NCBI GenBank assembly: GCA_017453245.1
Contig: JAFTKM010000001.1
Coordinates: 1 to 39,899, forward strand
Reading direction: 5' to 3'
Length of the DNA: 39,899 nucleotides
DNA from: Clostridia bacterium
Lineage (GTDB): Bacteria > Bacillota > Clostridia > Oscillospirales > CAG-272
The first letter of the stretch is position 1. Each line of letters opens with the position of its first letter. This document shows, one piece after another, positions 29,594-34,923 of this stretch. A program made the position numbers and the translations under genes. The notes below the pieces were generated by a model. It did not search any database, was not told the origin of the DNA, and saw nothing but the letters and a program-made list of their open reading frames with translations.

Positions 29594-31264
29594 ATGAAAG
29601 GCTTTGATAAATCCAAGCTGATACTCTCCGCTATTCTAGGCATTCCTACGGCGGCTATCGGCTACTACTTCTTCCTGCCTGCACTCAACCTGAGGTCCTA
29701 CGGCTTCTGGTTCTATCTTACGGCGGTTATAGCGGCTTTTGCCGTTCCGTGGCTTAATATCAGCATCAAGGATATTGTAGCAAACGTAAATAAGTCAAAG
29801 ATCTCAAAGAAGGCACGTAAGCAGTTTAATGTAACCTATACGTTTACAAAATCGGCAATTATCGCGCTTGTTGCGGTGGCTGTGCCTCTTGCGGTAGTTC
29901 TCTTTGGCTTCATATTCTCAAGCCAGGTCTTCCAGGCGAGAAGCTATGCTAAGGTAATCACCGTGACCGAGGCTGAGTTCGACGAGGATATGCCCGAGAC
30001 GACCGAGATCAACCATATCGCGCTTATGGATACTGCATCGGCGCAGGTGCTCGGTGACAAGACGCTCGGCGCTCTGTCCGAGGTTATATCTCAGTATGAC
30101 GTAAGTGAGTACTATACCCAGATCAACTTCAAGGGGACTCCCAAGAAGGTCTCCAACCTCGAGTACGACGACTTCTTCAAATGGATTGCAAACAATACAA
30201 AGGGCGTGCCCGGTATGGTTATGGTCGATCCCGTAAAGAGTGATGCGGAGTACATTGAGCTCGAGACCCCGATGATTTACGTAAATAGCGCGTTCTTCGG
30301 TCAGGACCTTATGAGAAAGCTGAGATTTGAGTATCCCACCAAGATATTCGACTCAGTCTCCTTCGAGATCGACGATAATAAAAATCCCTACTATATCGTT
30401 TCCTGCGTTAAGCCGAGAGTCGGTCTCTTCGGCGCTAAGGATATAAACGAGGTAATCATCTTCAATCCCTGCGACGGCTCGAGCACTCTTTACAAGCTTG
30501 AGGACGTACCCTCTTGGGTGGATATTGTCTTTACGGGTGATCTCGCGTGCAAGAAGTTTGACTGGCAGGGCTTATATTCCGGAGGCTTCCTTAATAGTAT
30601 TATAGGAAACGTCGGCTGCAGACAGACTACCGACGACTACGGCTACGTAGCGCTTGAGGATGACGTATGGTACTTCACCGGTGTTACCTCGGTTACTGCG
30701 GATAAGTCCAACGTAGGATTTATGCTCTCCAATGCAAGAACGGGTAAGTACAAGTTCTACCCCGTTATCGGAGCTGAGGAGCACTCGGCAATGTCCGCGG
30801 CGGAGGGCCAGGTGCAGGAGAAGGGCTACGTTGCCTCCTTCCCCTCCCTTGTTAACGTTTCAGGTCAGGCTACCTATATTCTTGTGCTCAAGGACGATAC
30901 GGGCATCGTTAAGCTCTATGCGCTTGTAAACGTGGAGAATTACAGCATCGTTGCTACGGGTACGACTCAGGCGGCGGTTATGAGCGCTTACAAGAAGCTG
31001 CTCCAGCAGAATAACATCGGCATCGGTGACAGCAACGACACCGCCGAGATAACCGTCGAGAACGTGCGTATCGCTATGGTATCCGACGTGTCGACAGTCT
31101 ATATCACCGCCACCGACGGTAAGGTCTACAAGGGTTATCTTGAGGCTGACGAAAGCCTTATTCTCGTACGCGTGGGAGATAAATTGAACGTCAATTTCTT
31201 CGAGGGTGATACCAAAAACGTGTACGTGATCTCGTCGTGGAGCTTTGCTGACGACAATCCTTAA
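29594..31264 (+). CDS. Membrane-anchored protein of unknown function, 556 aa
   Basis: I do not recognise a named family. The N-terminus has two hydrophobic segments at about 10-28 and 36-54, a basic loop (NVNKSKISKKARKQF) and a third segment at about 88-110. The rest (about 115-556) has a beta-rich, exported-type composition. Blocks that look conserved are DYGYVALEDDVWYFTGVTS and GYVASFPSLVNVSG. The C-terminal about 80 residues (AEITVENVRIAMVSDVSTVY, DGKVYKGYLEADE) could be a small OB- or SH3-like domain. GGAGG lies 7 nt before the ATG. The gene is monocistronic by promoter position; no terminator was found before the next promoter. Confidence 0.8.
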   Translation: MKGFDKSKLILSAILGIPTAAIGYYFFLPALNLRSYGFWFYLTAVIAAFAVPWLNISIKDIVANVNKSKISKKARKQFNVTYTFTKSAIIALVAVAVPLAVVLFGFIFSSQVFQARSYAKVITVTEAEFDEDMPETTEINHIALMDTASAQVLGDKTLGALSEVISQYDVSEYYTQINFKGTPKKVSNLEYDDFFKWIANNTKGVPGMVMVDPVKSDAEYIELETPMIYVNSAFFGQDLMRKLRFEYPTKIFDSVSFEIDDNKNPYYIVSCVKPRVGLFGAKDINEVIIFNPCDGSSTLYKLEDVPSWVDIVFTGDLACKKFDWQGLYSGGFLNSIIGNVGCRQTTDDYGYVALEDDVWYFTGVTSVTADKSNVGFMLSNARTGKYKFYPVIGAEEHSAMSAAEGQVQEKGYVASFPSLVNVSGQATYILVLKDDTGIVKLYALVNVENYSIVATGTTQAAVMSAYKKLLQQNNIGIGDSNDTAEITVENVRIAMVSDVSTVYITATDGKVYKGYLEADESLILVRVGDKLNVNFFEGDTKNVYVISSWSFADDNP

Positions 31265-31342: not shown

Positions 31343-31532
31343 GTCGAATCAAAGAATGTTAGAGGCGCGGATAATAAGAGTAGCCGTACACCGACCGCTC
31401 AAACGGTCAACGGGGCACGTGCGAAAGGGTTGTCTGCCGAAATGGGAGTCATTTGAGAGGCTCTTGTTGGGCGATGGGATAATATCTCACCGACTGTCAC
31501 AAGTTTCTTGTGGAGTGCTGCTTTCGATTGAG
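31343..31532 (+). promoter_or_regulatory. Lysine riboswitch (L box) aptamer
   Basis: The conserved core sequences are all present and in order: AGAGGCGCGG (31361), AAGAGTAG (31375), GAAAGGG (31423), TGCCGAAAT (31435), a GTTGGGC block, and CTGTCAC..GTGGAGTGCT (31494-31518). The flanks CGAATCAAAG and CTTTCGATTG can close P1. The riboswitch binds L-lysine and, with the terminator downstream, should turn off the ABC importer when lysine is abundant. The length of about 190 nt is typical. Confidence 0.93.
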
Positions 31533-31623: not shown

Positions 31624-32493
31624 ATGAAAAGAATCTTCGCGCTTATCCTCGCAGTAGCTCTTATGCTCTGCACCTTCACCTCCTGCGGCGGCAGAGACCA
31701 GTTTGATATGTCTGAAGTTAATTCTCTGTCCGACCTTGACGGCGCCGTTATCGCGGCACAGACCGGCACCTTCCACCTTGATGCTCTCACTGCTCAGACC
31801 GAGGGCGTAGATGTTAAGGAATATCCCGACTTCACCCAGCTTCTCACCGCTCTTAACTCCGGCGCTATTGACGGCTACGTTGCAGAAGAGCCCACCGCAT
31901 ACGCGGTTATCGCGCAGAACCCCGGCCTTAGCTACGTTGCACTTAAGAACAATGACACCGGCTTTACCGCTACCGATGCGGATACAGGTATCGCAGTTGC
32001 TTTCAAGACAGGCAGCGCATACGTTGCAACAGTAAATGAGATCCTTGCAGGCATCAGCACAGAAACTCGCGAGAAGCTCATGCAGCAGGCAGTAACAATG
32101 AATGCTAACCCCGATGAGGCTCTTACAGAAGCGCTTGCACTTGTTTCATCGAACACAAACACCTCTAACGGCACTCTCAAGATCGCTATGGAGTGCGCAT
32201 ATGCTCCCTTCAACTGGTCTCAGACAACCGATGCAAACGGCGCAGTCAAGATCCAGGGCAGCGACCTCTATGCTAACGGATACGACGTACAGATCGCCAA
32301 GTATATCGCCGCTGAGATGGGTATGTCTCTCGAGATCTACTCCGCAAAGTGGGAGGCTCTTATCACAGGTGTACAGGCAGGAACCTACGACGGAATCATC
32401 GCAGGTATGTCCCCCACAGAGGAAAGAGAAGCTGAGGTTGACTTCACCGACTGCTACTACAATTCCAACCTTGTAATTATCTACAAAAAGTAA
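31624..32493 (+). CDS. Lysine ABC importer substrate-binding lipoprotein with circularly permuted domain order
   Basis: A 289-residue lipoprotein (signal MKRIFALILAVALMLCTFTS, Cys21) of the family 3 solute-binding fold. The order of its parts is swapped. Residues 34-165 are what is normally the second half (SLSDLDGAVIAAQTGTFH, LNSGAIDGYVAEEPTAY, TGIAVAFKTG). After a linker (166-183), residues 184-289 are the normal first half (TLKIAMECAYAPFNW, YANGYDVQIAK, DGIIAGMSPTEERE, VDFTDCYYNSNLVIIYKK). The protein stops exactly at the hinge strand. The ligand contacts known for the family (acidic residue and Tyr in MECAYAPF, Arg in TEERE) are retained. The riboswitch argues for lysine. ATG 31624 follows AAAGGATGG by about 10 nt. 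Confidence 0.9.
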   Translation: MKRIFALILAVALMLCTFTSCGGRDQFDMSEVNSLSDLDGAVIAAQTGTFHLDALTAQTEGVDVKEYPDFTQLLTALNSGAIDGYVAEEPTAYAVIAQNPGLSYVALKNNDTGFTATDADTGIAVAFKTGSAYVATVNEILAGISTETREKLMQQAVTMNANPDEALTEALALVSSNTNTSNGTLKIAMECAYAPFNWSQTTDANGAVKIQGSDLYANGYDVQIAKYIAAEMGMSLEIYSAKWEALITGVQAGTYDGIIAGMSPTEEREAEVDFTDCYYNSNLVIIYKK

Positions 32494-32518: not shown

Positions 32519-33283
32519 ATGAATTTCTTTAACAACATTTCCAACATTTTAGATAAGTATACCGGTTTGCTCTTAAAGGGCCTCGGATATACTATGCTTA
32601 TCGCACTTGTAGGTACGGTAATAGGACTTATTATAGGTCTTTGTACGGGTATAATCAGAACGATTCCGACATCAAAAAACAAGGCCGTATCCATCATACA
32701 AAGGTGTGTGAACGCGCTTATCAGCGTATACGTTGAGGTATTCCGCGGAACGCCTATGATGGTACAGGCGATGGTTATTTACTGGGGCTTTGCCTTTGCA
32801 AACGGCGGTAATACCCTCCCCCTTATCCCTGCGGGTATATTTATTGTATCTATAAACACCGGTGCGTATATGACGGAGATCGTCAGAGGCGGTATCATCT
32901 CAATCGACAAGGGACAGTTTGAGGCTGCGTATTCCTGCGGTATGAACCACTTCCAGGTTATGCTCTACGTCATCATCCCTCAGGTTATGAAGAACATCCT
33001 CCCCTCGGTTTCCAACGAGTTTGTTATCAATATCAAGGACACTTCAGTGCTTAACGTTATCGGCGTTATGGAGCTGTTCTATCAGGCTACAAAGATCCAG
33101 ACAATGACCTACCAGATCTTCGAGACATATCTCGTTGTCTGTGTTATATACTTCATTATGACCTTCTCTATCACAAGACTGTTAAGGCTTGTTGAAAAGA
33201 AGCTCTCCGGCTCTAACTCCTATACAATCTGCGGCTCGCAGTCGGATCCCAATGCTGAAATACGCGTAAAGGAGGGTCAGTAA
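32519..33283 (+). CDS. Amino-acid ABC transporter permease (HisM/GlnP type), probably for lysine
   Basis: A 254-residue inner-membrane permease with about five hydrophobic segments. The cytosolic EAA loop that docks the ATPase is seen as [21 protein letters not shown] (about residues 140-160). [12 protein letters not shown] is a typical conserved block of polar-amino-acid permeases. AAAGGG lies 6 nt before the ATG. Only one permease gene is present, so it probably works as a homodimer. It is the second gene of the riboswitch-controlled operon; the ATPase gene starts one base after its stop. Confidence 0.95.
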
Positions 33284-33284
33284 T

Positions 33285-34022
33285 ATGTCTGAAAATGCAG
33301 TTATTAAGCTCTCCCACCTTGAGAAATCCTTCGGAGAAAACGAGGTCCTCAAGGACATAAACCTCGAAGTATCCAAGGGCGAGGTTATCTCGGTCATCGG
33401 CTCATCGGGCTCTGGCAAAAGTACTATGCTCCGCTGTATCAATCTGCTTGAGATCCCCTCGGGCGGTGAGATACTCTACGAGGGCAAGAATATCCAGGAC
33501 AAATCGGTAAAGCTCACAGAATACCGCGCAAAGGTTGCGATGGTGTTCCAGCAGTTCAACCTCTTCAACAATATGACTGCTCTTGACAACTGCGTCAAGC
33601 CGCAGATGATCGTGCTTAAGCGCACCAAGGAGGAGGCTACAAAAATCGCTCTTGAGTTTATCGAGAAGGTCGGAATGAGCGCTTACGTAAACGCTAAGCC
33701 CTCTCAGCTCTCGGGCGGTCAGAAGCAGCGTATCGCTATCGCGAGAGCGCTGTCGATGAATCCCGAGGTAATACTCTTTGACGAGCCTACCTCCGCTCTC
33801 GACCCTGAGATGGTCGGTGAGGTGCTTGAGGTTATGCAGGATCTCGCAAGATCGGGCTACACGATGATCGTTGTTACCCACGAGATGGGATTTGCAAGAG
33901 AGGTCTCGAGCAGAGTTATCTTCATGGACGGCGGTTATATCGTCGAGGAAGGCACTCCCGAGGAGATCTTCAAGAATACCAAGCAGGAAAGAACAAAGCA
34001 GTTCTTATCTAAGGTTTTGTAA
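33285..34022 (+). CDS. Amino-acid ABC transporter ATP-binding protein, probably for lysine
   Basis: A 245-residue ATPase that powers import. Walker A is GSSGSGKS (residues 39-46), the Q-loop is FQQFNLF, the signature is [15 protein letters not shown], Walker B is [13 protein letters not shown], and the switch His is in VVTHEMGFA. Length and motifs match the GlnQ/HisP group. It is the last gene of the operon and is followed by a strong terminator. Substrate assignment rests on the lysine riboswitch; the sequence alone would say only polar amino acid. Confidence 0.96.
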
Positions 34023-34846: not shown

Positions 34847-34923
34847 CTGCTCGTAGCATAGCTGGATAATGCACAGGACTCCGACTCCTGAGACCGTAGG
34901 TTCAAATCCTATCGAGCAGGCCA
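34847..34923 (+). tRNA. tRNA-Arg (anticodon CCG)
   Basis: Full cloverleaf: acceptor CTGCTCG/CGAGCAG, D stem GCAT/ATGC, anticodon stem CAGGA/TCCTG with loop CTCCGAC (anticodon CCG, codon CGG), T stem GTAGG/CCTAT with TTCAAAT loop, discriminator G and an encoded CCA. The length is 77 nt. Confidence 0.95.

Follow-up and report, generated by a model that had tools for sequence, protein, structure and literature searches.

A probable natural circular permutant among the family 3 amino acid-binding lipoproteins of the Clostridia, with relatives in three cyclic orders

The window, i.e. the whole stretch of 39,899 nucleotides from a Clostridia bacterium that was analysed, contains a single open frame at 31624-32493 (+) that encodes a family 3 solute-binding protein of 289 residues. 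On the evidence of its sequence this protein is probably a true natural circular permutant of what is taken to be the family 3 (type II) fold, a reading to which we assign a probability of about 0.88. The gene and its parts can be laid out as follows.

31624..32493, forward strand: predicted circularly permuted family 3 solute-binding lipoprotein of 289 residues (profile, Pfam and PDB matches)
31624..31686, forward strand: signal peptide, ending in the lipobox-like motif FTSC with Cys21 (from the translation; Cys21 is nearly invariant among the aligned relatives)
31708..32100, forward strand: residues 29-159, which hold lobe 2 and the C-terminal third of lobe 1; normally the second part, in this protein the first (profile columns 112-237)
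32101..32151, forward strand: residues 160-176, linker that leads from the former C-terminus to the former N-terminus (unmatched, between both matches)
32152..32490, forward strand: residues 177-289, which hold the N-terminal part of lobe 1; normally the first part, in this protein the last (profile columns 5-108; Pfam)

The order of the parts was established with a normal-order profile of 240 columns, built from 77 proteins with one continuous normal-order match each. Columns 112-237 match residues 29-159 (86.8 bits) and columns 5-108 match residues 177-289 (138.5 bits), so that both parts are complete, rotated and present in one chain. The initial annotation had proposed, from the letters alone, that the halves are exchanged and that a linker joins the former ends, and in both respects the profile agrees with it. 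Residues 34-165 do come first, as it had stated, but they are not lobe 2 only, since they also hold the C-terminal third of lobe 1. Its placement of the usual N-terminal half at the end is supported by Pfam SBP_bac_3 (PF00497), of which positions 1-92 fall on residues 185-289 with 76 bits against a cut-off of 26.4; the collinear succession of the Pfam domain, with the N-terminal part before the C-terminal part, was not found in the protein. Relatives in the PDB likewise gave two-piece matches in swapped order (e.g. AncQR, 4zv1: chain residues 9-104 correspond to window residues 182-289 and chain residues 108-212 to residues 31-139), and a single collinear match was thus obtained neither with the PDB nor with the profile. 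The protein might also have been one half of a longer tandem protein cut by a frameshift, a possibility that the initial annotation had itself raised; the stop-to-stop frames of at least 30 codons in the window contain no second frame that matches the profile, and no further piece of the domain.

Chance can be excluded as the source of the first-piece match: the corresponding regions of the 81 frames with the window's order (near copies included) all score at least 60.8 bits, the maximum for 1620 shuffled regions is 9.3 bits, and the region that precedes the domain in 83 normal-order frames, used as a control, does not exceed 2.3 bits. A search with doubled sequences returned one continuous full match only for the truncated L053 (266 bits); this test is weak by design, as the signal peptide sits between the copies, and the two-piece matches were used instead. 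The C-terminal end of the window protein would lie where the first crossover strand would otherwise continue. The protein also reaches 29 bits, where the cut-off is 30, with PF10613, the ligand-binding domain of ionotropic glutamate receptors, and stops at position 113 of the 115 of that model, near which the receptor chain presumably leaves for the pore. The receptor domain is homologous, but its chain is split by an insertion and not rotated.

The gene lies in an operon together with the genes for a permease and an ATPase, so that the parts of an importer are found together at the window locus.

31352..31528, forward strand: lysine riboswitch aptamer (RF00168) in the operon leader (cmscan 85.2 bits, E 4.4e-21)
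32519..33283, forward strand: amino acid ABC permease (BPD_transp_1; Pfam E 2.8e-25)
33285..34022, forward strand: amino acid ABC transporter ATPase of the GlnQ type (ABC_tran E 5.7e-37)

The ATPase scores 297.1 bits with PRK09493, below the cut-off of 379 of that model. A permease gene follows the binding-protein gene in all 37 frames of the window's permuted group, and an ATPase gene accompanies it in 34 of the 37 (copies included in both counts). The signal peptide with Cys21, the pocket residues and both operon partners are therefore in place, as the initial annotation had claimed. Directly upstream of the riboswitch, at 29594-31264, a protein of 556 residues is encoded, which by eye has hydrophobic stretches near its start and has no Pfam family above cut-off. 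Downstream of the operon lies a tRNA-Arg gene (anticodon ccg; 34847-34923), and a tRNA gene was also seen at other loci of the group (L032, L037, L038, L041, L046 and L049).

Lysine riboswitches normally control the uptake or the synthesis of lysine. Such a riboswitch was found at all 30 distinct loci of the permuted group that were scanned, the window included; the scan left out L053 and L058, which lack upstream sequence, L007, and the apparent copies of scanned loci L003, L004, L006, L061 and L062. Among related proteins with normal order it was found at nine of the 14 loci scanned (five gave no match), and among other rotated proteins at none of the 27 scanned. At ten positions of the pocket region (H51, Y85, E88, G113, F114, E190, Y193, W198, Y220 and W243) the window protein and its closest normal-order relatives carry the same residue, where other subfamilies mostly have a different one; R268 is found in nearly all. 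Eight of the ten (H51, Y85, E88, G113, E190, W198, Y220 and W243) are conserved in the permuted group and also found in the majority of the 12 closest proteins with normal order. A second normal-order set (n=16) has E190, W198, Y220 and W243 but not H51, Y85, E88 and G113; in this set position 51 is W, position 85 mostly V and position 88 D. L011 and L084 belong to this set, yet carry the riboswitch, so that riboswitch and pocket are not strictly coupled. We take E88 and R268 to be the positions at which the lysine/arginine/ornithine protein of Salmonella binds the amino and carboxyl groups.

The window protein is thus very probably a working, lipid-anchored lysine receptor, in which the assignment of lysine as the ligand is backed by the riboswitch at the locus. 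Arginine, ornithine or some other cationic amino acid could instead be the ligand of the intact permutant, with lysine acting only as the regulator; this reading coincides with the preferred one in everything except the ligand. The receptor family is broad and the ligand cannot be read from the pocket residues alone, but with a lysine riboswitch at 30 out of 30 scanned loci we regard it as doubtful. The NCBIfam model for the lysine/arginine/ornithine-binding protein (TIGR01096, cut-off 256.35) is reached neither by the window protein (106.9 bits) nor by its normal-order sister L063 (111.3 bits).

The initial annotation had described one case, but the feature recurs: judged by profile matches, the same domain exists in all three cyclic orders. 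The frames of 208 loci were scanned with the normal-order profile, which gave 83 frames in normal order, 81 opened at the first crossover (near columns 108/111, the window's type), 40 opened at the second (near columns 180/182), seven tandem arrays and three others; these counts are not frequencies, since most loci were fetched with rotated queries and copies are included. After thinning to below 85% identity, 69 normal-order, 56 first-cut and 32 second-cut proteins are left. From what is known of the family, both cut sites would correspond to crossovers between the lobes. The median length of the linker is about 15 residues.

L030:1213-2079, L031:1222-2082, L127-L158 and L160-L162: second-cut permutation, starting with the C-terminal third of lobe 1 and ending in lobe 2

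The N-terminal region of the 40 second-cut frames scores 25.7-61.5 bits, against a maximum of 6.1 for 800 shuffles, and in seven further second-cut proteins (L209-L214 and L224) the small piece scores 16-35 bits. In L158 (585-2367, reverse strand) two binding-protein genes are adjacent, a second-cut gene followed by a first-cut gene.

How common the rotated orders are was estimated from samples that are blind to order, searched with the normal-order profile at E 1e-15, with doubtful matches classed individually. In 25 genomes of the window's class, 54 matches came from 52 proteins, six of which are rotated (window counted): 44 proteins have one continuous match, three are first-cut (window included), three second-cut and two ambiguous, where the 44 include four in frames of 503-1004 residues judged by the match alone and one at a contig edge. 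In the sample of 24 genomes from the family, 44 proteins accounted for 49 matches; 12 of these proteins are rotated (window counted), namely six first-cut (window included) and six second-cut, next to 32 with a single normal-order match. In a search of the phylum at E 1e-50, three of 299 genomes matched the first-cut profile, two of them outside the window's class, and one of 299, inside the class, matched the second-cut profile. Since there are so few matches in the phylum, the spread seems to be centred on the window's class, in samples and at thresholds that differ from those used for the class.

The rotated orders appear to have arisen repeatedly. On a mixture-model tree of 69 proteins (thinned at 62%), the three orders require 12 changes where two would be the least possible, and the well-supported branches alone force at least five changes for the first cut and at least three for the second, numbers that depend on a limited sample of normal-order proteins and on deep branches with weak to moderate support. 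With constrained groups defined by the order of the parts and not by the tree, one clade of all first-cut proteins (AU test, p 2.9e-43), one clade of all second-cut proteins (p 2.3e-4) and a single origin of all rotated proteins (p 2.3e-4) were each rejected. It is quite probable, then, that in the window's class (Clostridia, many from the animal gut) the domain behaves as an evolutionary ring of three parts (start of lobe 1, lobe 2, end of lobe 1), with three cyclic orders, an opening at one or the other lobe crossover, repeated independent changes between the orders, once between adjacent genes, and a position of the chain ends that is itself evolvable.

Some of the rotated domains form part of longer chains. 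In L101 and L104 a rotated domain is fused to one permease in a single chain, and three larger frames were found.

L095:1333-4770, reverse strand: two binding domains in rotated frame, a permease and an ATPase in one chain of 1146 residues
L096:3583-6984, forward strand: two binding domains in rotated frame, a permease and an ATPase in one chain of 1134 residues
L025:214-3216, forward strand: four binding domains in rotated frame in a frame of 1001 residues, with no permease match

All seven tandem arrays have the second part of the domain at the start and the first part at the end. In GlnP (6h30), the best PDB match of all three permuted profiles, the two fused domains present the window's order across their junction; GlnP differs in that it has two complete normal-order domains in a fusion of binding protein and permease. 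Among the best 60 of the 94, 244 and 83 PDB matches of these profiles, only that to the tandem 6h30 had its best stretch running through both parts in rotated order. The rotated-frame arrays in the class and the normal tandem domains of GlnP together suggest a likely route, in which a tandem duplication would have been followed by fusion and by loss of the outer parts.

The single-domain fusions bear also on the question of how the two parts find each other. If the rotated order forced domain swapping, the second part of each chain would pair with the first part of a partner chain, and a dimer would be the working form. The linkers, with their median of about 15 residues, could permit such swapping, and swapped elements occur in permuted constructs of a type I binding protein, according to the available text of two reports (PMC10601554, PMC9815098). 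One rotated domain with one permease, as in L101 and L104, fits pairing within the chain better, though it is no proof, and we consider the swapped dimer improbable. In the preferred reading, a closed domain within one chain, the rotated fold would be expected to close around the amino acid as usual, since the pocket residues are kept and only the ends have moved. With the ends moved, the lipid anchor would lead into lobe 2 and the chain would end at the hinge.

The ancestry of the window's own group was followed in several trees. In a FastTree of the 157 proteins that remained of 203 after thinning at 85% identity, the permuted group is one clade (0.99) inside a clade of normal-order lysine proteins (1.0), with the normal-order L063 and L064 as its sisters (0.926). 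In the mixture-model tree, where three rows of the permuted group were left, the group has a support of 100/96 and its union with L063 one of 100/94. An earlier tree of 139 proteins gave the group a bootstrap of only 37% and placed it beside, not inside, its normal-order relatives (67%). The normal-order L063, L064, L059 and L060 resemble the window in riboswitch, adjoining permease and pocket residues, with identities to the window protein of 50-62% for the N half and of 43-47% for the remaining half; they differ in having the usual order of the parts. The direction from normal to rotated follows from the nesting in the normal-order clade, for which counts of changes alone would be insufficient.

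Trees of the separate halves are informative about a chimera, i.e. an origin of the window protein's two parts from two different paralogues, a possibility that the authors of the work on Tp0684 of Treponema pallidum raise for that protein (available text of PMC4990184). In each half alone L063 and L064 are nearest to the window protein, and the permuted group stays one clade (0.926 and 0.94); its union with L063/L064 has a support of 0.949 in one half, but just 0.51 in the second. Compared with L063, the window protein is 62% identical in one half and 46% in the other. Both parts thus have normal-order homologues of the same ancestry, and a chimeric origin appears very unlikely. That each half points to the same normal-order relatives, with which the pocket residues are shared, argues for one gene that was rotated. 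A normal-order ancestor would have been rotated once, in the common ancestor of the window's protein group; the linker, some 17 residues long, would have bridged the old ends, and new ends would have arisen where the first strand passes from one lobe to the other.

The exchanged order is conserved. In the genome_contigs collection, with one genome per species, 29 related loci were found, of which 26 have the window's order, the remainder being one fragment and two normal-order loci. Looking for the same order in related genomes had been the advice of the initial annotation, and its reservation about a misassembled contig was not borne out. The hosts of the 29 loci are mostly labelled Clostridia, Oscillospiraceae or Ruminococcaceae, with one Erysipelotrichaceae (L056). 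A total of 98 genomes was searched as relatives, 60 of them of the window's genus (its own included, many incomplete), and the permuted protein is present in nine of these 60. Purifying selection acts on both halves: dN/dS is 0.06-0.18 on each in the eight of ten comparisons that were computable. In many of the pairs the synonymous sites approach saturation; the linker changes more rapidly than the two halves. With its one open frame, conserved operon and purifying selection the gene is to be regarded as functional rather than broken, as had been supposed. An assembly error, frameshift or pseudogene has next to no chance, even in a fragmentary genome of 27 contigs and 64% completeness, given the recurrence of the order in 26 other loci, the intact frame and operon, the selection and the absence of stray pieces in the window.

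Natural circular permutants are generally regarded as uncommon and mostly as single old events. Among the betaine-binding proteins ProX/OpuAC, which constitute a substrate-binding family other than that of the window protein, the order of the domains presumably differs between relatives. A firmer precedent is Tp0684 (TpMglB-2) of T. pallidum, a crystallised natural permutant with a type I sugar-binding fold, the relatives of which, according to the available text of its report, occur in Gram-positive bacteria, many of them from the gut (PMC4990184). Like Tp0684, which according to that text binds its ligand, the window protein would be a natural circularly permuted binding lipoprotein of an ABC system. 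Tp0684 has a type I sugar fold with an added fourth crossover and, in the text available, one described cut site, whereas the window's family belongs to the type II amino acid family 3, with two cut sites, several apparent origins and normal-order sister genes. Judged by sequence only, the window protein does not have the type I sugar-binding fold of the Tp0684-like 'Cluster Bc', its matches being to family 3 proteins. Membrane anchoring is proposed by the authors of that work as a possible reason for the permutation (available text of PMC4990184). In the proteins studied here lipobox-like motifs were counted in 77 of the 82 frames with normal order, in 76 of the 81 with the first cut and in 31 of the 40 with the second cut; the presence of an anchor alone does not support lipid anchoring as the cause of rotation. 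No natural permutant of family 3 was found in a literature search that covered titles and the starts of abstracts and scarcely reached subscription journals. Binding proteins that are permuted in nature are known, and within the reach of this search their occurrence in family 3, with two cut sites and at such a frequency, is apparently new.

One of the commonest receptor families would thus display several independent rotations, with both cut sites at lobe crossovers. Independent rotations and normal-order sisters at about 50% identity would make a direct comparison of cause and effect possible, which could ask what ends placed away from the first lobe do to affinity, closing motion, permease docking and the reach of the anchor. 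The rotated proteins may also serve as natural templates for biosensors, for which binding proteins are permuted by hand. Finally, models of Pfam and NCBIfam match those rotated proteins that were scanned in two pieces or as a partial domain, and such proteins can therefore look like fragments in annotation.
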